The position numbers were made by a program, and so were the translations under genes. A stretch of 64,000 nucleotides of DNA, taken from NCBI RefSeq assembly GCF_016904885.1, contig NZ_JADWYI010000001.1:496001-560000 (forward strand), in the 5' to 3' direction. Source of the DNA: Archangium primigenium (lineage in GTDB: Bacteria; Myxococcota; Myxococcia; Myxococcales; Myxococcaceae). This document shows, in pieces, positions 1,292 to 12,512 of the stretch. Numbering within the stretch: the stretch's first letter is position 1; each line of letters begins with the position of its first letter. The notes under the pieces are model-generated. The model had not been told where the DNA came from and made no database searches. It was given only the letters and a program-made list of their open reading frames with translations.

Positions 1292-2596
1292 ATGAAGCGC
1301 GTGCTGCTGCTCCTGTGGCTCGTGGCGACGGGGGCCGGGGCCGCGCCCGAGAGTGCCCTGGAGCGGCTGCTCGCGCACGCGGCCCTGCCCGGCCTCGCCC
1401 CACCACCCGAGGCGCCGCTCACCGAGGCGCGAGCCCGACAGCTCGGGCGCGCCCTGCTCGACAGCGCGCCCACCGCACGCACCTTCGCGCCCCGCACCAC
1501 CCTGGCGCACCTGCTGCGCACCGGCGCCCCGGACTCCCTGCGCACCCGGGCCGAGCACGTCCGTCCCCTCGTCGTGGTGCGTCCGGACGGCTACGTCTGC
1601 GTCGCCCTCACCGGCGCGCCCCTCGCCTGGCTGGGTCCGCCCACCCTCGTCGACGGCCACCTGTCCGTGCACCGCCTGCGCGTGGGCGCCTTCTACTTCG
1701 ACCGGGCGGGCGTCTTCTTCGCCGTGGACGACACCCTGCGGCCCGTGGGGCCTCCCCTGGCCGAGCGCCCCCTGGGCCGCGACCCCGCCACCGCCGCCCT
1801 CCTGGGCTCCCAGGACGCCGTCGAGCAACTGGCCCTCGCCCTCGCCCACCTCCTCGTGCACCCCGTGCGCTCACTCGAAGGCCTGAGCCAGCTCCCCTCC
1901 GGCCTCGCCCACCTCCTCGCCACATCTCCCGAGTACTTCGCGCGCTACGGCGCCCTGCCCCTGGAAACCCAGGTCCGCGAGGCCTCGCGGCTGGCCACCC
2001 ACCTGCTCACGCTCCAAGGGGGCCTCGTCGCCCAGGGGCCTCGACTGGCCGGGGCCGCGCGTCTGCCCGTGCTCACCCTCTCCGCCCGGGGCGAACTGGT
2101 GCTGGGCAGCGTCGCCACGCCCGTGGCCGCTCCATCCCTCGTGGCCCACGCGGGCGCCGCCTCGCTCGTCTTCATGGCCCAGGGCATGCCCCCTCCCGGT
2201 GGCCCCGGTCAGTGGCTCCAGAAACCCGAGGGCATGTCCTCCGAGGCCCAGCGCTACCAATCCCAGGTGACGGGCGCCCCCGAGGGCTGGGTGTACCGCG
2301 TGCGCACCGGCCCCGGCCCCAAGGACTTCGTCGACTTCGATGGCTTTCGCGACGGGGTCCTCCTCGAGGCCAAGGGTCCCGGCTACCAGGACCTCCTGCG
2401 CAAGATGTATGGGAAGAAATGGTTCGACGGACTCAACGACATGGTCGCGCAAGCACAGCGGCAGTTCAACGCCACCCCCGCGGTTCCCTTGCATTGGCAC
2501 TTCGCTGAACTTGAAGTCGCGGAGCGCCTTCGCAGGATCTTCCGCGACCGCGGCTACGGCGCCATCAAGGTCATCCACACGCCGCCCATTCCTTGA
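1292..2596 (+). CDS. Polymorphic toxin with C-terminal Tox-REase-5 nuclease domain (copy 1)
   Basis: 434 residues. A signal peptide (residues 1-17, MKRVLLLLWLVATGAGA) precedes about 300 residues of Ala/Leu/Pro-rich sequence with no domain I recognise, presumably for delivery. From about residue 325 the sequence fits the restriction-endonuclease-fold toxin 5 family: YQSQVTG, then FVDFDGF, then LLEAKG with the nuclease E359-x-K361 pair, a glutamine/arginine helix (QAQRQF) and a closing WHFAE..IKVIHTP. The expected activity is DNA or RNA cleavage in a rival or non-immune sibling. It lacks the lipobox cysteine seen in Myxococcus SitA lipoprotein toxins. The Imm52-like gene follows after 12 bases. 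It is nearly identical to the gene at 3472 except for the last 60 or so residues. Confidence 0.8.
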   Translation: MKRVLLLLWLVATGAGAAPESALERLLAHAALPGLAPPPEAPLTEARARQLGRALLDSAPTARTFAPRTTLAHLLRTGAPDSLRTRAEHVRPLVVVRPDGYVCVALTGAPLAWLGPPTLVDGHLSVHRLRVGAFYFDRAGVFFAVDDTLRPVGPPLAERPLGRDPATAALLGSQDAVEQLALALAHLLVHPVRSLEGLSQLPSGLAHLLATSPEYFARYGALPLETQVREASRLATHLLTLQGGLVAQGPRLAGAARLPVLTLSARGELVLGSVATPVAAPSLVAHAGAASLVFMAQGMPPPGGPGQWLQKPEGMSSEAQRYQSQVTGAPEGWVYRVRTGPGPKDFVDFDGFRDGVLLEAKGPGYQDLLRKMYGKKWFDGLNDMVAQAQRQFNATPAVPLHWHFAELEVAERLRRIFRDRGYGAIKVIHTPPIP

Positions 2597-3326
2597 GAAG
2601 GCCATCCCATGCAGGAAACCTACTATGCCGCGACCTATTGGCCTGCCCGTCAGGGCTCGGTCCAGTCATGTGCGGTCCAATCCGAGCGACTCTTCCAGTC
2701 GCTGTCGCGGTGTGACACGTCCTTTTCCCACTGGTTTCGTCAGGGCAAGACGCGTGCGGCGGCCTTGAGCCAGGCGTTCCCGACGGACGTCGCGGGACTC
2801 GTTACCCTCTTCGACGAGCAAACCCGGGAAGAGGGCAGGAGGCAGACAGACGGATTCTCCGCCGATGTCTGGAATGGACAGTCCGACGAGGATTCCAGCA
2901 GCCTCTCGTTCCGCATGGGCGGCGCATCCTCCCGGCTTCCTGAATTCTGCCTGTTGTCTCCCCCCGAGCAAGGGCCCACGGCGGAACGGCTGCTGCGCGC
3001 CCCGACACTCGCCCAGGTGCTGCGCGCCATGGTGCGCGCCTTCGAGCCCGAGTGGGGCCTCGCCACCTCCCACGCGCACCGCGACCTCGTGTCCGACTCC
3101 GCCGCGCCGGGCACCTTCATCGGCTGGCTCACCTACTTCTCCCACCGTCGCGGCCCCCTTCCCGCCCTGCCCCCTTCCGTCCACCTCGAACCCGTGGACA
3201 CGCTCGGCACCCTGCTTGTCCTCACCCCGGAGCGCTTCACCGCCACCCGGCCCGACCATCTGGCGCTCGCCCAAGACGTCTCCTCGCGGCTGCAACAAGC
3301 CGGCCTGCTGTCACCCCTTCGCCCAT
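1310..3326 (+). repeat. Tandem toxin/immunity repeat, unit A
   Basis: First of two direct repeats; partner at 3490-5482. The conserved left arm (1310-2414) matches 3490-4582, and the conserved right arm (2960-3326) matches 5120-5482. Between the arms, 2415-2959 is divergent from its partner 4583-5119. The unit thus covers most of a toxin gene and all of its immunity gene. Confidence 0.85.
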
Positions 3327-3328
3327 AA
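2609..3328 (+). CDS. Imm52-like immunity protein for toxin copy 1
   Basis: 239 residues, cytoplasmic (no signal peptide). It opens METYY-like (MQETYYAATYWPAR), followed by a CA...RLFQSL helix and a WNG motif near residue 90. These fit the immunity protein 52 family found beside restriction-fold toxins. Residues from PPEQGPTAERLLR to the end match the second immunity protein almost exactly, while the first half differs substantially. The gene follows its toxin by 12 bases, as expected for co-translation of a protective partner. The family call rests on recalled motifs and on the gene pairing, not on a search. Confidence 0.7.
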   Translation: MQETYYAATYWPARQGSVQSCAVQSERLFQSLSRCDTSFSHWFRQGKTRAAALSQAFPTDVAGLVTLFDEQTREEGRRQTDGFSADVWNGQSDEDSSSLSFRMGGASSRLPEFCLLSPPEQGPTAERLLRAPTLAQVLRAMVRAFEPEWGLATSHAHRDLVSDSAAPGTFIGWLTYFSHRRGPLPALPPSVHLEPVDTLGTLLVLTPERFTATRPDHLALAQDVSSRLQQAGLLSPLRP

Positions 3329-3471
3329 CCGGGCTGGAAACCCCGCGTCGAAATGAACCCCTCGATCGCTCAACCCTGTAAATTCACCGTTCTCAAACAA
3401 CCAACCCCGTGGTTCCTCAGAAACAAGACGATGACCACCTTGCGTCCAGCGCGGCGGCGGTACCGCCGACC

Positions 3472-4761
3472 ATGAGGGGCGTGTGGGCGCTCCTGTGGCT
3501 CGTGGCGACGGGGGCCGGGGCCGCGCCCGAGCGCGCCCTGGAGCGGCTGCTCGCGCACGCGGCCCTGCCCGCGCACCTCGCGCCCCCACCCGACGAGCCC
3601 CTCACCGAGGCGCGGACCCAACAACTCTGGCGTGCCCTGCTCGACAGCGCGCCCACCGCACGCACCTTCGCGCCCCGCACCACCCTGGCGCACCTGCTGC
3701 GCACCGGCGCCCCGGACTCCCTGCGCGCCCGGGCCGAGCACTTCCGTCCCCTCGTCGTGGTGCGTCCGGACGGCTACGTCTGCGTCGCCCTCACCGGCGC
3801 GCCTCTCGCCTGGCTGGGTCCGCCCACCCTCCTCGACGGCCACCTGTCCGTGCACCGCCTGCGTGTGGGCGCCTTCTACTTCGACCGGGCGGGCGTCTTC
3901 TTCGCCGTGGACGACGCCTTGCGGCCCACGGGGCCCCCCCTGGGCCGCGACCCCGCCACCGCCGCCCTCCTGGGCTCCCAGGACGCCGTCGAGCAACTGG
4001 CCCTCGCCCTCGCCCACCTCCTCGTGCACCCCGTGCGCTCACTCGAAGGCCTGAGCCAACTGCCCTCCGGCCTCGCCCACCTCCTCGCCACATCTCCCGA
4101 GTACTTCGCGCGCTACGGCGCCCTGCCCCTGGAAACCCAGGTCCGCGAGGCCTCGCGGCTGGCCACCCACCTGCTCACGCTCCAAGGGGGCCTCGTCGCC
4201 CAGGGGCCCAGACTGGCCGGAGCCGCGCGACTGCCCGTGCTCACCCTCTCCGCCCGGGGCGAACTGGTGCTGGGCAGCATCGCCACGCCCGTGGCCGCTC
4301 CGGCCCTCGTGGCCCACGCGGGCGCCGCCTCCCTCGTCTTCATGGCCCAGGGCATGCCGCCTCCGGGTGGCCCCGGACAGTGGCTCCAGAAACCCGAGGG
4401 CATGTCCTCCGAGGCCCAGCGCTACCAGTCCCAGGTGACGGGCGCCCCCGAGGGCTGGGTGTACCGCGTGCGCACCGGCCCCGGTCCCAAGGACTTCGTC
4501 GACTTCGACGGCTTTCGCGACGGTGTCCTCCTCGAGGCCAAGGGTCCCGGCTACCAGGATCTCCTGCGCAAGATGTATGGGAAGGACTGGTTCAAGGGAT
4601 TCGACCAACTTTTCGGACAAGCCGAGCGTCAGATGAGAGTCCCCGGAAGCAACCCCATCCAGTGGCACATCGCGGAACAAGACGTCGCGCTTCGACTGCG
4701 GACGGCCTTTCGTGACGAGGGCCTGGGCCGGATCAAAGTCATTCACACTCCCATCAAATGA
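3472..4761 (+). CDS. Polymorphic toxin with C-terminal Tox-REase-5 nuclease domain (copy 2)
   Basis: 429 residues. I chose the ATG at 3472 over one 63 bases upstream because it directly opens the signal peptide (MRGVWALLWLVATGAGA) that matches copy 1. The delivery region and nuclease core, including the FVDFDGF and LLEAKG catalytic stretches, are almost identical to copy 1; one short deletion (copy 1 reads PPLAERPLGRD, this copy PPLGRD) is visible. After KMYGK the last 60 residues diverge clearly (WFKGFDQLFGQAERQ in place of WFDGLNDMVAQAQRQ), yet keep the Q..RQ, WH..E and IKVIHTP framework. The tip is therefore a variant of the same fold, plausibly with different immunity specificity. Confidence 0.8.
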   Translation: MRGVWALLWLVATGAGAAPERALERLLAHAALPAHLAPPPDEPLTEARTQQLWRALLDSAPTARTFAPRTTLAHLLRTGAPDSLRARAEHFRPLVVVRPDGYVCVALTGAPLAWLGPPTLLDGHLSVHRLRVGAFYFDRAGVFFAVDDALRPTGPPLGRDPATAALLGSQDAVEQLALALAHLLVHPVRSLEGLSQLPSGLAHLLATSPEYFARYGALPLETQVREASRLATHLLTLQGGLVAQGPRLAGAARLPVLTLSARGELVLGSIATPVAAPALVAHAGAASLVFMAQGMPPPGGPGQWLQKPEGMSSEAQRYQSQVTGAPEGWVYRVRTGPGPKDFVDFDGFRDGVLLEAKGPGYQDLLRKMYGKDWFKGFDQLFGQAERQMRVPGSNPIQWHIAEQDVALRLRTAFRDEGLGRIKVIHTPIK

Positions 4762-5482
4762 TGAGCCCATGAACGAGACCTATTATCTGGGCGTGTACTG
4801 GCCAGCGCGAGCGGACTCCGCGGAGCAGTGTGCCCAACACGTCTCTCGACTGTTTCAGTCACTCGCGGCGTGTGATCCCAAACTCACATCTTGGTACAAC
4901 AAGGGCTGGACCCTCGAAGAGGCCTTGTCCAAACGACTGGACACCCAAGCCTCGGTCCTTCACCGGCAATTCTCCAGGCGAGAAGCCTCCGCGGAGACCC
5001 CTCGAGCTGACGGCTATTCGTTGAGAATCTGGAACGGCGAGCCGGACGAAGGCAGCGCAAGCCTTTCCATCCGCTGTGGAGAAGGCTCTCCCTGGATTCC
5101 CAACAGCTGCGTGCTCACCCCCCCCGAGCAAGGGCCCACGGCGGAGCGACTGCTGCGCGTCCCGACGCTCGCCCAGGTGCTGCGCGCCATGGTGCACGCC
5201 TTCGAACCCGAGTGGGGCCTCGCCACCTCCCACGCGCACCGCGACCTCGTGTCCGACTCCGCCACGCCGGGCACCTTCATCGGCTGGCTCACCTACTTCT
5301 CCCACCGCCGCGGCCCCCTTCCCGCCCTGCCCCCTTCCGTCCACCTCGAACCCGTGGACCCCCTCGGCACCCTGCTCGTCCTCACCCCCGAGCGCTTCAC
5401 CGCCACCCGGCCCGACCATCTGGCGCTCGCTCGAGACGTCTCCGCGCGGCTGCGACAGGCCGGCCTGCTGTCACCCCTTCAC
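3490..5482 (+). repeat. Tandem toxin/immunity repeat, unit B
   Basis: Second direct copy of the unit starting at 1310. The arms are near-identical to unit A at base level, including synonymous positions, which points to recent duplication or gene conversion of the arms, while the central block 4583-5119 has drifted or been replaced. Confidence 0.85.
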
Positions 5483-5497
5483 CCCGAGTCCTGCTGA
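4769..5497 (+). CDS. Imm52-like immunity protein for toxin copy 2
   Basis: 242 residues, no signal peptide. It starts MNETYYLGVYWPAR and carries the same helix (RLFQSL) and WNG landmarks as the copy 1 immunity protein, but the residues before PPEQGPTAERLLR differ at many positions. The C-terminal 120 residues are nearly identical between the copies. Seven bases separate it from the toxin stop. If the pairing is specific, the divergent N-terminal half should be the toxin-reading face; this is inferred from the divergence pattern only. Confidence 0.7.
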   Translation: MNETYYLGVYWPARADSAEQCAQHVSRLFQSLAACDPKLTSWYNKGWTLEEALSKRLDTQASVLHRQFSRREASAETPRADGYSLRIWNGEPDEGSASLSIRCGEGSPWIPNSCVLTPPEQGPTAERLLRVPTLAQVLRAMVHAFEPEWGLATSHAHRDLVSDSATPGTFIGWLTYFSHRRGPLPALPPSVHLEPVDPLGTLLVLTPERFTATRPDHLALARDVSARLRQAGLLSPLHPESC

Positions 5498-5637
5498 CGC
5501 CTCGTCACCTCGCGGCCCGCTACGCCCGAGGTCGGTGCCGCTGGATGACGGATGCGCCGCCCTCTGCTAGGTAATGGGCCCCCCTTGGGCCTCCCTTGCC
5601 CCGCCCGTCCGCACCCCAGACGGGGCTCGTCCCGTCA

Positions 5638-8600
5638 ATGACATCCCACTCCAGGTCGCGTGCCCTCGCGGCCTTCCTGCCCGGCTCGCTCGTACGTGCC
5701 CTGCAGGAAGACGACACCCGGCCGCGCGAGGGGGCCTGGCACGAGCAACCCGGCGCGGTGCTCTTCGCCGACCTCACGGGCTTCACCGCGCTCGCCGAGA
5801 CGCTGGACCGGGGAGACCCCTCGGGCGCCGAGCAGCTCCGGGGCATCCTCGATGCCTGCTTCTCCCAGCTCATCGGCACCCTGCGGGCCCACGGCGGGGA
5901 CGTGCTGCGCTTCGCCGGGGATGCGCTGGTGGCGCTCTGGCCCGCGGAGTCCTGGGACGGCCTGCCGCGCGCGGTGGAGCGCGCGGCCCACTGCGCCCTG
6001 GAGGCCCAGGCCCTCCTGGAGGCCGCGCCGCCCCAGGGCGGGGTGCGCACGCGCCTCAAGGTGGGCATCGGCGCGGGCCGGGTGCGGCTGTCCGACGTGT
6101 GCGGCGAGCAGGGGCACTGGGACTTCCTCGCCTCGGGCGAGCCGCTGCTGGAGATGACCCAGGCGGAGCAGACCGCCCAGCCCGGGGAGATCATCCTCGG
6201 CCCGCAGGCCTCGCGGCACCTGCCCCACGCCCGGGGCGAGCCCCGCGGCCCGGTGGGCTTCCGGCTCACGGGCCTGCCGCCCCTCGCGCCCAGCCCGGTG
6301 CGCGCCGTGGAGCCCCCGCCCCACCTGGAGTCGGCGCTGCGCGCCTACCTGCCCCGCATCGTCTCGCTGCGGCTGGAGGCGGGCCATGGCCAGTGGCTGT
6401 CCGAGTTCCGCACCGTCACCGTGCTCTTCATCAACCTGGGCGGCCCGGCGCTCGCCGCGGGGCACCACCCCGCGGAGCTGCAACACACCTCGCGCATCCT
6501 CCAGGCCATCCTCTTCCGCCACGGGGGCAGTGCCCACCAGATGGTGGTGGACGACAAGGGCGTGGTGATGGTGGCGGCCTTCGGCCTGCCCCTGCTCTCG
6601 CACGAGGACGACGCGGTGCGCGCGGTGCTGGCCACGCTCGAGATGCGCGCGGCGCTGCGCGAGCGCGGCATGCCCTACCGGTTGGGCGTGGCCACCGGGC
6701 GCGTCTTCTGCGGCACCATCGGCTCGGACACCCGGCACGAGTACGTGATGGTGGGCCACACGGTGAACCTGGCGGCGCGGCTGATGCAGGCCGCCGTGGA
6801 CGACGTGCTCTGTGATGGCGCCACGCTGGCGCGCAGCTCCGAGCGGCTGCGCTTCGAGCTGCTGCCGCCACTCAAGATGAAGGGCATCACCCAGCCGGTG
6901 CCCATCTTCCGGCCCCACGAGAACGGGCTCGGTCCGGACAGCCGGCGCGGGCTGCCGGTGGTGGGCCGCGAGCCCGAGCGCGCCCAGCTCGCCGCGGCCG
7001 TGCGCGCGCTGGCCGACACGGGCACCGGCCGCACCCTGCTCATCGACGCGGAGGCCGGCATGGGCAAGTCCGTGCTGGTGGACGAGGCGCTCGAGGGCGC
7101 GCGCGCGCTGGGCGTGTCCACCGCCCAGGGCGAGGGCACGTCCGAGGAGCGGGCCCGGGCCTACCACGCCTGGCGTCCCGTGCTCGCGCGGCTGCTCGGC
7201 CTGGAGGCCGCGCCGGACCCTGGCGCCCGCGCCGCGATCCTGCTCGAGCGGCTGCGGCACCGGCCCGAGCACGTCGCCTGGGCCCCCCTGCTCAACGGGG
7301 TGCTGCCCGTGCAGCTGCCCGAGGGCGACGGCCTCCAGCACATGACGGCCGCGCTGCGCGGCAGCAACACGCGCGAGCTCCTGGTGCAGCTGCTCGACGA
7401 CGCCTGCCGCGAGCGGCCCCGCATGGTGGTGCTGGACGACGCGCACTGGATGGACTCGGCCTCGTGGGAGCTGGCGCTCGCGGCCCAGCGGCGCGTGCGG
7501 CGGCTCTTGCTCGTGCTCTGCGCGCGGCCCCCCACCGAGACGGCCGACACCGGGCACCGGCAGCTGCGCGAGGCGCCGGGCACGCGCCTGTTGACGCTCG
7601 GGCGCATGCCCGAGGAGGACGTCCTGGCGCTCGTGTGCCAGCGGCTCGGCGCGCGGCGGCTGCCCGGGCCGATGGTGACGCTCTTGCGCGAGCGCGCCGA
7701 GGGCCACCCCTTCTTCGGCGAGCAGCTGGCGTGTGCCCTGCGTGACGCGGGCCACCTCGTCGTGGAGCGCGGCGACTGCCGCTGGGCGCCGGGCCCGGGT
7801 GGGACGGCGCCCCCGGGCCTGCCCAGCACCATCCAGGGCCTGCTCATCAGCCGCATGGACCGGCTCACGCCCCAGCAGCAGCTCACCCTCAAGGTGGCCA
7901 GCGTGCTCGGCCGGGCTTTTCCCCTCGTGCTCCTGCGCGACATCCACCCGGTCGCCTCGGACCGGGAGTCGCTGGCCGAGCAGCTGGACGCGTTGCACCA
8001 CCTGGGGCTCGTGCAGCCCCAGAAGGCCTCGGCCCAGGGGCCCGAGTATGCCTTCCAGCACATCCTCATCCAGGAGGCCGCCTACCACCTCATGGCGTTC
8101 GCCCAGCGGCGCGAGCTGCACCGCGCCGTGGCCGAGCACCACGAGCGCGCCGAGCACAGCGAGGAGCGGCTGCCCCTGCTCGCCCACCACTGGCACCGCG
8201 CCGAGCAGCCCGAGCGCGCCCTGTCCTACCTGGAGCGCGCGGCCGAGACGGCCTCGGGGCGCGGCGCGCCCCGGGAGGCCATCGCCCTGCTCACCCAGGC
8301 CCTGGCGCTGGCCACGGGGGGCGCGCCGCCGCTCGGGCCCCTGCGCGCCACGCGCTGGAATGCCCGGCTCGCCCAGGCCCACCACGCGCTCGGGGACATG
8401 GACACCGCGCTCGCCCACGCCGACCGCGCCCTCGCGCTGCTCGGCGACACCCGGCCCACCACGCGCTGGGCCTGGGGACGGCGGCTCGTGCGCGAGGGCG
8501 GCCAGCACCTGGTGGGGCTCGCCCTGTCGCGCGGGTGCGCCGCGACCGGCCCGGACGAGCACCGCGAGCGCCTCACGCTCGCCGCGGGCCTCTTCTCCCT

Positions 8601-9711
8601 GCTCGCCGAGCAGAGCTTCTACGACGACCGGCTCCTGGAGAGCATGGCCTGCAACTTCGCCGCGGTGAACCGCGCGGAGGCCGTGCGCGCCTTCTCCACC
8701 GCGGCCGTGGCCTACAACGCCCTGGGCTACATGGCGGGCATGGGGCGCTCGCGCCCGCTCGCGCGGCACTACTTCCGCCGCGCGGCCACGCCCGGCCCGA
8801 GCCCCCACACCGACGTGGTGGAGGGCGCCTACCACCTCACCTTCGGCCGGTGGGAGGAGGGGCTCGGACAGGTGGAGCGCGGCATCGCCGCGGCCCGGCG
8901 CATCAACGACTGCTTCACCCAGTGCACGGGCCTGGAGGTGCTGGGCATGGGCCTGGAGCTGGCGCGCGCGCCGGGCGCCGCCCAGGCCGTGCGCGAGACG
9001 ATGTTGCAGGTGGCCACCGAGGCGGCGAGCGCGGTGAACACCATGTGGGCCCTGTCGGAGATGGCCACCACGCTGTTGCACCTGGCCCGGCCGCGCGAGG
9101 CCGCCGAGCGACTGCGCGAGGCCCAGGCCCTGCTGCCACGCTCGGATCCGCTCGCCGTGCTGCGCTACCACTGCAACGCGGCGCTCGTGGCCCACCGCAC
9201 CGGAGAAGACATCCAGGCGCGCGGCCACGCCCACGAGGCCCTGCGCATGCTGCGCGCCCGCCCCGTGGTGGTGTGGTCCGACGTCACCTCGCTCAGCGCC
9301 CTGGCCCAGGCTTGTCTGGAATTGTGGGAGGACGCCCAGGGCGCGAGCGCCGCCGTGTGCGGGGAATTCCGCGCCCTCACCCGTGACGCGCTGCGCGTCC
9401 TCGTCAAAGCGGGTCGGCTCTACCCCACCGCGCGCAGCCGCGCCGAGCGCCTGGCCGGCACGAGCGCCTGGCTGGAGGGCCGCCGCGAGCGGGCGGTGCG
9501 GCTGTGGCGGCGCGCGCTCGCGTCCGCGCGGGAGCACCGTCTGCCCACGGACGAGGCCCTGGCCCACCAGGCGCTCGCCCGCGCCGCGCCGCCCACGAGC
9601 GCCACCCGCGCGGTGCATCGACACCAGGCGCGCCGCCTGTTCGAGCACCTGGGTGCTCACGGCTTGATACAAGCACTGGACAGGTGGGAGTACCCTTCAA
9701 CACTCCCCTGA
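5638..9711 (+). CDS. Soluble-adenylyl-cyclase-like protein (two class III cyclase domains, NTPase, helical repeats)
   Basis: 1,357 residues from the ATG at 5638 (an in-frame TTG lies 42 bases upstream). Domain 1 (about 35-215) has both metal aspartates: D45 in FADLTGF and D95 in FAGDALVALW. It lacks the transition-state Asn/Arg. Domain 2 (about 255-425) lacks the first aspartate (VLFINLGG) but has K307 (DDKG) and N377/R381 in VGHTVNLAARL. The two halves are thus complementary, as in mammalian soluble adenylyl cyclase (ADCY10), whose C1-C2-NTPase-repeat layout it shares. A P-loop (AEAGMGKS, near 471) and Walker B (MVVLDDAHWMD) form a STAND-type NTPase, followed by roughly 500 residues of TPR-like helices. 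There is no membrane segment. It probably makes cAMP in the cytosol; the regulating input is unknown. Confidence 0.85.
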   Translation: MTSHSRSRALAAFLPGSLVRALQEDDTRPREGAWHEQPGAVLFADLTGFTALAETLDRGDPSGAEQLRGILDACFSQLIGTLRAHGGDVLRFAGDALVALWPAESWDGLPRAVERAAHCALEAQALLEAAPPQGGVRTRLKVGIGAGRVRLSDVCGEQGHWDFLASGEPLLEMTQAEQTAQPGEIILGPQASRHLPHARGEPRGPVGFRLTGLPPLAPSPVRAVEPPPHLESALRAYLPRIVSLRLEAGHGQWLSEFRTVTVLFINLGGPALAAGHHPAELQHTSRILQAILFRHGGSAHQMVVDDKGVVMVAAFGLPLLSHEDDAVRAVLATLEMRAALRERGMPYRLGVATGRVFCGTIGSDTRHEYVMVGHTVNLAARLMQAAVDDVLCDGATLARSSERLRFELLPPLKMKGITQPVPIFRPHENGLGPDSRRGLPVVGREPERAQLAAAVRALADTGTGRTLLIDAEAGMGKSVLVDEALEGARALGVSTAQGEGTSEERARAYHAWRPVLARLLGLEAAPDPGARAAILLERLRHRPEHVAWAPLLNGVLPVQLPEGDGLQHMTAALRGSNTRELLVQLLDDACRERPRMVVLDDAHWMDSASWELALAAQRRVRRLLLVLCARPPTETADTGHRQLREAPGTRLLTLGRMPEEDVLALVCQRLGARRLPGPMVTLLRERAEGHPFFGEQLACALRDAGHLVVERGDCRWAPGPGGTAPPGLPSTIQGLLISRMDRLTPQQQLTLKVASVLGRAFPLVLLRDIHPVASDRESLAEQLDALHHLGLVQPQKASAQGPEYAFQHILIQEAAYHLMAFAQRRELHRAVAEHHERAEHSEERLPLLAHHWHRAEQPERALSYLERAAETASGRGAPREAIALLTQALALATGGAPPLGPLRATRWNARLAQAHHALGDMDTALAHADRALALLGDTRPTTRWAWGRRLVREGGQHLVGLALSRGCAATGPDEHRERLTLAAGLFSLLAEQSFYDDRLLESMACNFAAVNRAEAVRAFSTAAVAYNALGYMAGMGRSRPLARHYFRRAATPGPSPHTDVVEGAYHLTFGRWEEGLGQVERGIAAARRINDCFTQCTGLEVLGMGLELARAPGAAQAVRETMLQVATEAASAVNTMWALSEMATTLLHLARPREAAERLREAQALLPRSDPLAVLRYHCNAALVAHRTGEDIQARGHAHEALRMLRARPVVVWSDVTSLSALAQACLELWEDAQGASAAVCGEFRALTRDALRVLVKAGRLYPTARSRAERLAGTSAWLEGRRERAVRLWRRALASAREHRLPTDEALAHQALARAAPPTSATRAVHRHQARRLFEHLGAHGLIQALDRWEYPSTLP

Positions 9712-9736
9712 GGGACATGTCCTGAAAACGTGACCC

Positions 9737-9754
9737 TGTGAAATGCTTCACAGC
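9737..9754. promoter_or_regulatory. CRP-type palindromic operator
   Basis: The sequence CTGTGAAATGCTTCACAG is a perfect inverted repeat with the exact CRP-family consensus TGTGA-N6-TCACA. It lies 84 bases before the oxygenase start and 26 bases after the stop of the cyclase gene. Its centre (9745.5) would sit at -41.5 if transcription starts near 9787, which is the classical class II activator position. Which CRP/FNR-family protein binds it is unknown. Confidence 0.6.
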
Positions 9755-9774
9755 AATACGGCCGCGGGAGGTTT

Positions 9775-9780
9775 ACGCTG
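9775..9780 (+). promoter_or_regulatory. Possible -10 element of the oxygenase/terpene-cyclase operon
   Basis: TACGCT within GGTTTACGCTGTCGG keeps the first two bases and the last base of the TATAAT consensus. No good -35 is present at 17 bases, which fits an activator-dependent promoter using the palindrome at 9737. The same core (TTTACGCTGTC) recurs before epsZ at 37045. Confidence 0.35.
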
Positions 9781-9837
9781 TCGGCCAGCGCGGGGGGGGG
9801 AGCGGTTTTCAAAAATCGCCCGCGAGGAGTCACATAC

Positions 9838-11049
9838 ATGCCGTCGAGCCTCTGGACTCACGACTTCATGGACGAGATGCGGCTGCAGGGAGATCCGCTC
9901 GCCGATGGAGTGATCGAGAAGCTGTTCGCGGATGGAAGCGTGGCGTCGGTCAACCAGCTCTTGCACACGCTGGTCGGCAATGACGACCTGCCGTCGAACA
10001 AACTGCCCGTGGACGTGCAGCAGTATCTGCTCCTCACCCGGCCGGTGCTCACGCGCACGGACGTGGAGAAGCTGCGGCGGGCCCAGGAAGTCTTCGAGCT
10101 GTTCGGCCCCGAGGTGATGATGATCCTCGGCTTCTATTCGCTGCCGGCGGCGTACGCGGCGCGCCGGGGCGTGCAGGTGCTCGCGCGCACGGGCAACCTG
10201 TCCATCAATCCGGTGCGGCGCGTCTTCGAGACGGCGCAGATGGTCGTGGATGTGATGAGCCGGGGCGGCCTGGAGCCCGCGGGCCGGGGCGTGCGCACCA
10301 CCCAGAAGGTGCGGCTGTTGCACGCGGCGGTGCGGCGGCTCATCCGCAAGGATCGGCGCGGCGCCTGGGCGGAGCAGGAGCTGGGCGTGCCCATCAACCA
10401 GGAGGACATGGCCGGCACGCTGATGACCTTCTCCTATGTGGTGCTCGAGGGCCTCAAGGCGCTGCGCATCGAGCTCACCCCGGAGCAGCAGGACGCCTGG
10501 CTGCACGCATGGAAGCTCGTGGGGCGCACGCTCGGGGTGCACGAGCGGCTGCTGCCCGACGGCCTGGACGAGGCGCGCATGCTCACGCGCTTCATCCGCG
10601 AGCGGCAGGTGGAGCCCAGCGCCGAGGGCGTGGCGCTCACGGCCGCGCTCATCGAGGGCATGAAGGCGATGGTGCCCGCGCCGCTCGAGGGGCTGCCGGC
10701 GAGCATGATCCACTTCTTCCTGGATCAGGACCAATGGCAGGGGCTCAACGTGGCGGACATGCTGTGCGTGCCCCAGCCGGACTGGACGACGAGCATCGCG
10801 CAGGCCATCACCTACGTGGGCGGCTTCACCGACTGGGTGGGCGACCACACCTTCCTGCCGGCGCGGCTCGTGCGGCTGGTGAGCAAGGACATCGTCGAGG
10901 CGATGCTCCGCACGGAGGTGGGCGGCAAGCGCGCCCTCTTCCAGATTCCCGAGGAGCTGCGCGGCGTGTGGAACCTCAAGGCCCGGGGGACGCGTCCCTC
11001 GGGGCGCCACCTCGCGGTCGGCCCGGACAGCGGGCTGAGGGTGGCGTGA
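9838..11049 (+). CDS. Oxygenase of the MpaB / latex-clearing-protein (DUF2236) family
   Basis: 403 residues, no signal peptide. The central part carries family landmarks: a LLHAAVRRLI helix with a conserved histidine (about 160-170), the MAGTLMTFSYVVLEGLKAL segment (about 197-215) and WKLVGRTLGVHERLLP (about 223-238). These match heme-b oxygenases such as rubber oxygenase Lcp and the fungal MpaB/MpaB' enzymes that cleave isoprenoid chains. It is cytoplasmic by sequence, unlike secreted Lcp. It is followed after 3 bases by a membrane terpene-cyclase-like gene, so the natural substrate may be an isoprenoid made or cyclised by its partner. The pairing and substrate are inferred. A perfect CRP-type site lies upstream. 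Confidence 0.75.
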   Translation: MPSSLWTHDFMDEMRLQGDPLADGVIEKLFADGSVASVNQLLHTLVGNDDLPSNKLPVDVQQYLLLTRPVLTRTDVEKLRRAQEVFELFGPEVMMILGFYSLPAAYAARRGVQVLARTGNLSINPVRRVFETAQMVVDVMSRGGLEPAGRGVRTTQKVRLLHAAVRRLIRKDRRGAWAEQELGVPINQEDMAGTLMTFSYVVLEGLKALRIELTPEQQDAWLHAWKLVGRTLGVHERLLPDGLDEARMLTRFIRERQVEPSAEGVALTAALIEGMKAMVPAPLEGLPASMIHFFLDQDQWQGLNVADMLCVPQPDWTTSIAQAITYVGGFTDWVGDHTFLPARLVRLVSKDIVEAMLRTEVGGKRALFQIPEELRGVWNLKARGTRPSGRHLAVGPDSGLRVA

Positions 11050-11052
11050 GTC

Positions 11053-11832
11053 ATGCACCCGTCCCTGATGGTGCACACGCTCCCCGGTGGAGCGTTTGAT
11101 CCCCTCGCGTGGTTCAACGTCGTGGGCGAGCTGGGGTGTGTGCTGTGGGTGGTGGCGTATGGCTTCATCATCCGCCAGTGCTTCCAGGACAAGTCCTATG
11201 GCCTGCCCCTCATCGCCATCTGCATGAACCTGGCCTGGGAGTTCCTGGCCTCGTGGGTGCTGCCCAACCCCGTGCCGCTGTGGCTGTTCTTCGATCGGGT
11301 GTGGTTCTTCGTGGACCTGGTCATCGTCTACCAGTTGGTGCGCTACGGCCCCGCCCTGCAGCTGGTGCCGGAGCTGCGCGAGCACTTCCACGCCATCGTG
11401 CTCGGCACGGTGATGCTGTCCGTGTTCGGCCTGTATGCCTTCCACGTGCAGTACCATGACCTGTTGGGCCTGATGGGCGCCTTCATGGTGAACCTGGTCA
11501 TGAGCGTCGCCTTCGTCTTCTTCTACTTCGCCCGGCGGCAGCAGGGCGGGCGCGGCCTGTCCGTGCCGGCCGCGTGGTGCAAGATGCTCGGCACGCTGGG
11601 CACGTCCATCGAGTGTCACTGGGTGATTGGCCAGACGCAGAGCTGGCTCGGAGGGCTGCACTTCCTCACCTTCCTGAGCCTGTCCATCCTGCTGTTCGAC
11701 GCGCTCTACCTGCGGCTGGTGATGAAGGAGGTGCTCGCGCGCGTCCCCGAGCGAGCTCACGCCGCGTGGGCGATCGGCGCCGTCCGGCCGCCCACGCACA
11801 CCGCCTCGTGGAAGGGGTCCACGGGCAGGTAG
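11053..11832 (+). CDS. Integral-membrane terpene cyclase-like protein (PaxB/Pyr4 family)
   Basis: 259 residues with about seven membrane helices. Two acidic positions that define the family are visible: the glutamate of MNLAWEF in the second helix (about residue 60) and the aspartate of LLFDALY in the last helix (about residue 218). Fungal Pyr4/PaxB and bacterial homologues use these to protonate a terpenoid epoxide or olefin and start cyclisation. WFFVDLVIVYQ in helix 3 also fits. The ATG lies 3 bases after the oxygenase stop, so the two form an operon. The 3' end overlaps the convergent PhoD-like gene by 76 bases. Function is inferred from topology and motifs only. Confidence 0.65.
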   Translation: MHPSLMVHTLPGGAFDPLAWFNVVGELGCVLWVVAYGFIIRQCFQDKSYGLPLIAICMNLAWEFLASWVLPNPVPLWLFFDRVWFFVDLVIVYQLVRYGPALQLVPELREHFHAIVLGTVMLSVFGLYAFHVQYHDLLGLMGAFMVNLVMSVAFVFFYFARRQQGGRGLSVPAAWCKMLGTLGTSIECHWVIGQTQSWLGGLHFLTFLSLSILLFDALYLRLVMKEVLARVPERAHAAWAIGAVRPPTHTASWKGSTGR

Positions 11833-12512
11833 TCACACAGGGCGCGCCACACCGCGCGCCACCGCTCGCACCGCGCCTCCTCCCACAGCACCAGCAGGGG
11901 CAGGGCCGAGTGCCAGCGCCGGGGCTCGGAGCGGGCGCGGTAGGCGCGGCACCACGCGCGGTAGCGCGACACCGAGGGCGCCGCCGAGGGCGCCGCCACC
12001 CCGGCCTCCCCCGCCTCGCGCAGGCTGTCCCCCAGGAAGAGGATGAACTCCGGCTCGTCCCCGTCCAGCCGGCTGGCGCGCGCGCCGAGCAAGTCCTGGT
12101 AGCGGGCCACCGTGAAGTGCAGGGGCCGCGTCAGGGGCGACACGGTGCCCGTGCGCGTGCGGCCACACGCCGAGCCGCGCCACTGCCCGTCCCGCTCCAC
12201 GAGGAAGCGGTAGTGGTAGCAGGTGCCGGGCTCCAGCCGCGTCACGCGGACCTTGAGGGTGTGGTCGCGCTCGGGCGAGGGCACCAGCCCCGTCACGTCC
12301 ACCACGCACCGCGTGAAGTCCGCGTCCTGGGCCACCTGGAGCGACACGGACAGCCGCGCGCCGGGCTCGAGCGGATCCACCACCCGCGTCCACAACACCA
12401 CCTCGTGGGCGCCCGGCTCCCCCGAGGCCACCGCCTGGGGGAAGTACGCCGGCCCCGCGTCCAGGGCACGCACGCGCGGGCAGACTCGGGCTGGGGACGG
12501 GACTGGGGGCAT
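11757..12512 (-). CDS. Short degenerate PhoD-like phosphatase remnant
   Basis: 251 residues. Residues 24-130 match the N-terminal fibronectin-like domain of alkaline phosphatase D proteins (AVASGEPGAHEVVLWTRV). Residues 131-230 follow the start of the metallophosphatase domain, but the metal-site motifs are altered: the usual GDYIYE reads GDSLRE at 161-166 and WDDHE reads WEEAR at 210-214. The protein ends shortly after LPVDPFHEAV, where full PhoD proteins have some 250 more residues including further metal ligands. There is no Tat or Sec signal. It is likely non-catalytic or a decaying gene. Its 3' end overlaps the opposite terpene-cyclase gene by 76 bases, and the truncation may reflect that collision. 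Confidence 0.55.
   Translation of the reverse strand: MPPVPSPARVCPRVRALDAGPAYFPQAVASGEPGAHEVVLWTRVVDPLEPGARLSVSLQVAQDADFTRCVVDVTGLVPSPERDHTLKVRVTRLEPGTCYHYRFLVERDGQWRGSACGRTRTGTVSPLTRPLHFTVARYQDLLGARASRLDGDEPEFILFLGDSLREAGEAGVAAPSAAPSVSRYRAWCRAYRARSEPRRWHSALPLLVLWEEARCERWRAVWRALCDYLPVDPFHEAVCVGGRTAPIAHAA

Follow-up and report, generated by a model that had tools for sequence, protein, structure and literature searches.

A CRP-type operator lies between the gene of an sAC-like class III nucleotidyl cyclase and two genes encoding a haem oxygenase and a terpene cyclase, in a 64-kb window (the whole stretch of myxobacterial DNA that was analysed). We consider it quite probable that a class II CRP-dependent promoter drives this terpenoid-tailoring operon. 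Because the operator is a textbook CRP site, and is kept solely in ordered trios of the three genes among the genomes examined, it is very probable that a cyclic nucleotide switches the operon. The adjacent cyclase is probably one source of that signal; a role as its dedicated source is possible, if somewhat doubtful.

The operator and the operon downstream

The gap between the cyclase stop at 9711 and the oxygenase start at 9838 contains both TGTGAAATGCTTCACA and the −10-like hexamer TACGCT. The operator occupies 9737..9752 (with no strand assigned), is an exact match to TGTGA-N6-TCACA and lies 25 bp 3′ of the cyclase stop; the self-complementary run CTGTGAA-ATGC-TTCACAG makes it an 18-bp palindrome at 9736-9753. 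The earlier note on this DNA had correctly recognized the exact match, although its coordinates of 9737-9754 exceed the true span. It had also recognized the hexamer, which is indeed present, but at 9774..9779 (plus strand), one base to the left of the 9775-9780 given there. We place the predicted transcription start at 9786 on the plus strand, 7 nt past the −10. With the palindrome at 9737-9752 and the hexamer at 9774-9779, the palindrome centre at 9744.5 falls at −41.5 relative to this start, in agreement with the class II spacing proposed earlier. The −41.5 spacing fits a predicted −10 in the window and in three orthologues. The hexamer of the window is weak (3/6 match to TATAAT), the operon promoter has no recognisable −35, and no two-hexamer promoter of the sigma-70 type was found in 9600-9900.

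The cAMP-dependent class II promoters of E. coli CRP, GlxR and CRPMt serve as the comparison. The likeness lies in the TGTGA-N6-TCACA sequence centred at −41.5 of the predicted start, and in the RE-x-x-N-K helix of the CRPs encoded in this genome. The difference is that here the predicted site precedes a terpenoid-tailoring operon in a myxobacterium.

Could the palindrome have arisen by chance? A single exact copy is present in the window, and copies with two or fewer mismatches are not enriched (6 observed against 12.5 expected). Yet only 0.02 exact matches are expected in the window, where just two of 100 shuffled sequences contained one, and the site is conserved across genera (see below). 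In the complete genome (9.49 Mb) the exact motif occurs at 7 places against 0 for its reversed control, and in 15 relatives at 144 against 7. A chance origin is hardly credible, and we have rejected it. Judged by these counts, the motif is the signature of a genuine regulon of the CRP type.

It is also very improbable that the palindrome functions as an RNA hairpin, for example as the terminator of the cyclase gene. CTGTGAA-N4-TTCACAG is able to pair, but it is followed by no T run, no terminator was called in 9600-9900, and other copies of the motif, such as TGTGACAGCCCTCACA, cannot extend the stem. This reading has thus found no support.

The two genes downstream had been described as an oxygenase/terpene-cyclase operon, and profile searches uphold this. 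The first (9838..11049, plus strand) matches MPAB_Lcp_cat with 70.5 bits (cut-off 23), a sequence match from which haem binding is predicted. The second (11053..11832, plus strand) begins 3 bp after the oxygenase stop and matches PF25129 with 82.9 bits (cut-off 27), predicting the activity of a Pyr4-type transmembrane terpene cyclase. We propose that an activator of the CRP/FNR family, in its cyclic-nucleotide-bound form, would bind 9737-9752 and, at the class II spacing, would recruit RNA polymerase to a promoter that has only a weak −10. The oxygenase and terpene-cyclase genes would then be switched on, probably as one transcript, and their products would tailor a prenyl chain or a meroterpenoid.

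Acidic residues have a role in Pyr4, and two residues of this kind, E63 and D216, are invariant in the terpene cyclase and all nine relatives aligned with it (53-74% identity). The enzyme thus resembles the Pyr4-type cyclases in its PF25129 score above cut-off and in these two residues; it differs in being bacterial and in standing beside an Lcp-type oxygenase. PF25129 matches were found in 10/195 genomes of the phylum. Among the papers listed on Pyr4-type cyclases in bacteria or myxobacteria, or on Pyr4 catalytic residues, none was on point.

Apart from a third, weak match to MarR (E 0.24), the only solved sequence relatives of the oxygenase are structures of the rubber oxygenase LcpK30. In LcpK30, His198 is described as the haem ligand on the proximal side, with Arg164 and Thr168 in the active site (PMC5522427). 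All three have counterparts in our oxygenase, H162, R128 and T132, while the distal Lys167 is replaced by E131. Judged by these matches, the operon may carry out oxidative tailoring of a prenyl chain. The pairing of oxygenase and terpene cyclase recurs, since a second, distant pair is present in the same genome at G000:C1:1530947-1532792 (L097:7942-9844), with 32% identity for the oxygenase and 30% for the terpene cyclase. No exact CRP palindrome was found in the 18-kb stretch around this second pair.

A link between CRP and an Lcp-family process is not without parallel, because CRP-VH2 of Gordonia polyisoprenivorans provides one (PMC8235351). The passage on it mentions neither a cyclase nor a Pyr4-type partner, and the organism belongs to a different phylum; here, an MpaB/Lcp-like oxygenase is paired with a terpene cyclase. 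Compared with the known CRP-Lcp link, the adjacent cyclase gene and the terpene cyclase are the points of difference. Among the papers listed on Archangium or Cystobacter in connection with CRP and terpenes, none was on point.

Two other features of the window were noted. On the minus strand, a gene matching the PhoD N-terminal domain (11757-12512) shares 76 bp with the 3′ end of the terpene-cyclase gene; at 251 aa, against a profile of 574, it appears to be short for PhoD, and it scores 54 bits where the cut-off is 1000. Further upstream, 1292-5497 holds two similar toxin-immunity pairs in tandem, Tox-REase-5 with Imm52. The first (1292-2596 and 2609-3328) was matched to Pfam, and the second (3409-4761 and 4712-5497) was read from the list of open reading frames alone.

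Presence and absence of the site at related loci

The upstream regions of orthologous operons were compared. A search with the oxygenase covered 96 genomes of the family, of which 58 gave a match, and larger stretches were examined at the eleven closest loci. Three further cyclase loci with more than 60% identity (G002, G003 and G005) and five terpene-cyclase loci were added. Gene content at each locus was taken from blast matches above 80 bits for the oxygenase loci and above 60 bits for the others.

Cyclase, oxygenase and terpene cyclase occur in the order of the window in G006 (L059), G007 (L060) and G004 (L061), all of genus g3, to which G005 also belongs. The palindrome is kept where the same three genes stand in the same order, so that its absence from orthologous loci, which the earlier note would have counted against its reading, was not observed there. 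The gap of each contains TGTGAATCGCTTCACA, followed by TACAAT after 20, 22 and 20 nt, respectively, compared with TACGCT after 21 nt in the window. Over 20 columns comprising the site and its flank, the window is identical to each of the three at 18/20 positions. Over the rest of the gap the identities are 41/101 (G006), 49/101 (G007) and 48/101 (G004). The site is therefore kept across genera inside an otherwise diverged gap, in three loci whose independence is incomplete, since G004 and G007 are alike at 99/102 positions outside the site.

These loci also bear on a role for CRP as a repressor, or as a roadblock against read-through from the cyclase gene. The close approach of the site to the cyclase stop, with no terminator called in 9600-9900, would suit such a function. 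But a −10-like hexamer stands at the class II distance in 4/4 ordered trios, and a repressor or roadblock is decidedly unlikely.

The three orthologous loci carry a cytochrome P450 gene upstream of the cyclase (G007, L060:3457-5609; G004, L061:3171-5254; G006, L059:3632-5011), followed in G007 and G004 by a TetR gene. A CRP site precedes the P450 gene in G007 (exact) and in G004 (one mismatch); none was found before that of G006, where the best candidate has 4 mismatches. In congener G032, the same check gave a 2-mismatch match to the motif at another distance.

Including the window, the exact site is present in 4/4 ordered trios and in 0/11 of the other loci examined. The Fisher p of 0.0007 for this distribution ignores shared descent, and the real events number perhaps two or three; the counts lend indirect support to a link between cyclase and operon, with few independent events behind them.

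In three congeners, G032, G033 and G034, the oxygenase stands at the locus without the cyclase or the terpene cyclase. Each has a relative of the cyclase elsewhere (41-47% identity) and has retained crp; a Pyr4-type match was absent genome-wide from all three. Before the oxygenase they preserve a 22-nt remnant resembling the 3′ end of the cyclase gene (21/22 identical), and the aligned place of the operator has 4, 5 and 5 mismatches of 10, with TAAGCT at the place of the −10-like hexamer. Given the remnant and the mismatched site, the cyclase has probably been lost from these loci and the site has probably decayed.

The remaining loci are likewise devoid of the site. In G041, G063 and G067 the oxygenase and terpene cyclase occur with the cyclase absent from the vicinity, and the 300 nt preceding the oxygenase contain no exact site; a second locus in G041, which has the oxygenase, is also without a site. 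In G002, G003 and G005 the cyclase (63-64% identity) stands beside the same PhoD-like neighbour, without oxygenase or terpene cyclase, and the site is absent to a distance of about 460 nt from the cyclase stop. In G021 (L066) all three genes are present and rearranged, with the oxygenase divergent from the cyclase and terpene cyclase, and neither gap has a site; gene linkage thus does not always accompany CRP. Five more terpene-cyclase loci and two distant cyclase loci (L095-L099, L103 and L104) gave no exact site in the stretches examined.

The CRP motif and the CRP paralogues of the genome

Is the class II arrangement general in this regulon? We searched for TANNNT at gaps of 20-23 from exact sites, excluding by design the site of the window and its three orthologues. 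The 47 sites comprised the other 6 of the own genome and 41 of the 144 in relatives (9/9 from G002, 16/17 from G006, 12/13 from G007, 2/10 from G003 and 2/10 from G004, with none from G005, G021, G032-G035, G041, G042, G063 or G067). The hexamer was present at 6/47, whereas its frequency at other positions predicts 0.65. The class II arrangement is thus over-represented without being general, and since 41/47 sites lack the hexamer we have rejected this arrangement as a rule for the whole regulon. Two exact sites of this genome (L002:5001 and L005:5001) have TAGACT or TACGGT 22 nt downstream, and by eye they precede frames with lipoprotein-like starts.

Profile searches of the genome gave 20 matches for cNMP-binding and 8 for HTH_Crp_2, seven of the latter above cut-off. 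Both domains score strongly in four proteins, whose recognition helices read SRESVNK (L008), TRESTNK (L006), SRQTTNQ (L020) and SRSFVST (L021, presumably MrpC-like). The pocket GE(L/M)ALLDGEPRS is kept in L008 and L006, including the Arg-Ser of the phosphate-binding cassette. The genome thus encodes, in these two full-length CRP paralogues, a cyclic-nucleotide pocket together with a matching helix, and judged by these features L008 and L006 are the candidate CRPs for the site. They score 92 and 93 bits, far below the 266-bit cut-off for E. coli-type CRP equivalogs. The best solved relatives of L008, ranked behind a multi-domain protein of Toxoplasma, are 3r6s and 3d0s, whose helix in the alignments is SRETVNK, compared with SRESVNK in L008; we take these structures to be GlxR and CRPMt.

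L008 (Crp) was matched in 14/14 genomes searched. The exact motif lies 238-375 bp past the crp stop in 10/10 genomes of the window's genus and of genus g3. G021 has an exact copy 86 bp upstream of where the crp alignment begins, and G063 has one with a single mismatch 19 bp past the crp stop; no copy was found within 700 bp downstream of crp in G041 and G067. Because copies of the motif adjoin crp, the motif is tied to this regulator better than by resemblance alone.

The copies past crp in the two genera are tandem sites 23 bp apart, located in the own genome between crp and a convergent gene (L001:4990-5390; G000:C1:218235-218635), with counterparts in L152-L160. One site of each pair is exact and the other is exact or has one mismatch, the second being read from the alignment in five genomes. 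Beyond them there is a TA-containing −10-like stretch and then about 75 nt that are partly conserved and have, by eye, no conserved reading frame. Towards the crp 3′ end, behind the tandem sites, most genomes have a GC-rich hairpin-like stretch. This arrangement makes the stretch a candidate for a CRP-driven small RNA running towards crp, although covariation is weak (2/12 pairs, 8 of the 10 sequences being used) and Rfam gave no match in three loci.

The second crp gene, L006 (G000:C1:3024145-3027180), is followed on the opposite strand by two class III cyclase matches. It is immediately preceded by AGTGAGCGACATCACA, with TATGCT 20 nt further, which looks like a site of self-regulation.

The cyclase and the source of the signal

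The upstream gene (5596..9711, plus strand) had been described as a class III cyclase with two half-sites, and both half-domains, C1 and C2, are matched by profile. They are followed by an AAA_16 ATPase and a TPR-like tail whose TPR match is below cut-off. Orthologues suggest that the true start is the ATG at 5638. The best solved relative by phmmer is human ADCY10 (4cm2), aligned over both halves with E 1.4e-42.

In sAC, Lys334 belongs to the adenine-recognition pair, Asn412 and Arg416 act in the transition state, and Lys451 also has an assigned role. Seven cyclases were aligned (the window, G002, G004 twice, G006, G007 and G021). The metal-binding D59 and D109 and the transition-state N391 and R395 are kept in 7/7, as are the residues corresponding to sAC Asn412, Arg416 and Lys451. 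Since the metal ligands and these three residues are retained, the cyclase looks active. By contrast, the canonical Lys/Thr (or Lys/Asp) adenine pair is absent: Lys334 is replaced by Q315 (Gln in 7/7), and Thr405 by V384 (Val or Met in 7/7). The bicarbonate site is also not kept, with Lys95 replaced by R105 and Arg176 by T188 (Thr or Ala in 7/7). According to PMC12250328, Lys95 and Arg176 form the bicarbonate site, Asp47 and Asp99 are ion ligands and Thr405 contacts adenine. With Lys95 and Arg176 replaced, bicarbonate control is unlikely, and we have rejected bicarbonate sensing by this cyclase. The enzyme accordingly resembles ADCY10 in its two half-domains, which an ATPase and TPR-like tail follow here, and in both metal Asp residues, Asn412, Arg416 and Lys451; it differs in Gln/Val at the adenine pair, and in Arg for Lys95 and Thr (Ala in relatives) for Arg176.

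With non-canonical adenine-recognition residues, cAMP is no more than the likely product. The same substitutions, present in the window and all six relatives, would suit an enzyme that made cGMP or used mainly another nucleotide, with a CRP-family protein reading that signal. We regard this as unlikely. The adenylyl cyclase Rv0386 has Gln at this place and tolerates a Gln-Asn pair. In addition, the phosphate-binding cassette of the CRP paralogues includes the Arg-Ser pair, and among solved structures the nearest full-length relatives of these proteins are CRP/FNR regulators of bacteria.

Does the adjacent cyclase then supply the cAMP? PF00211, the class III cyclase profile, matches 19 times in 18 open frames of the genome, with two of these matches next to the second crp gene, and the neighbour is therefore not the sole possible source. 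There is about an even chance that the operon simply belongs to a global CRP regulon as one of its ordinary members, responding to the whole-cell cAMP pool, with the cyclase its neighbour by accident or for another purpose; this account overlaps our preferred explanation and differs from it in the source of the signal only. The abundance of cyclases favours it, as do the second crp gene adjoining two other cyclase genes, the location of the other six exact sites at least 76 kb from this cyclase, and the orthologues in G002, G003 and G005 that have neither partner genes nor site. Against it, no examined locus that lacks either partner has the site, and the position of the G021 cyclase (43% identity) between oxygenase and terpene cyclase is unexpected for a random neighbourhood.

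The earlier note had pictured a compact cAMP sense-and-respond unit. The part of this that stands is a conserved CRP site at class II spacing, in a genome with two CRP paralogues. The cyclase as supplier of cAMP is the weaker part, given the 18 class III frames and the non-canonical adenine residues. Moreover, both CRP genes lie elsewhere, away from the operon of the window, and thus the compact unit is without its regulator. A closed loop from cyclase to operon is plausible nonetheless. More tentatively still, the locus could be a feed-forward module dedicated to secondary metabolism, in which a bicarbonate-blind relative of sAC, sensing a cue through its ATPase/TPR part, acts by way of its cyclic-nucleotide product and a CRP at the adjacent class II site to turn the operon on; selection for the site would end once the partner genes were lost. 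If this were true, the CRP site before the P450 gene of G007 (and of G004, with one mismatch) would make a CRP-switched cluster.

None of the literature matches listed dealt, by title or start of abstract, with CRP sites in myxobacteria, and among those listed on cAMP-CRP control only a study of MrpC had Myxococcus in its title. The locus is a concrete, conserved candidate for a CRP target in myxobacteria. It has a built-in natural control in the congeners that lack both the partner genes and the site, and it offers a handle on the timing of expression of a rare bacterial Pyr4-type cyclase.
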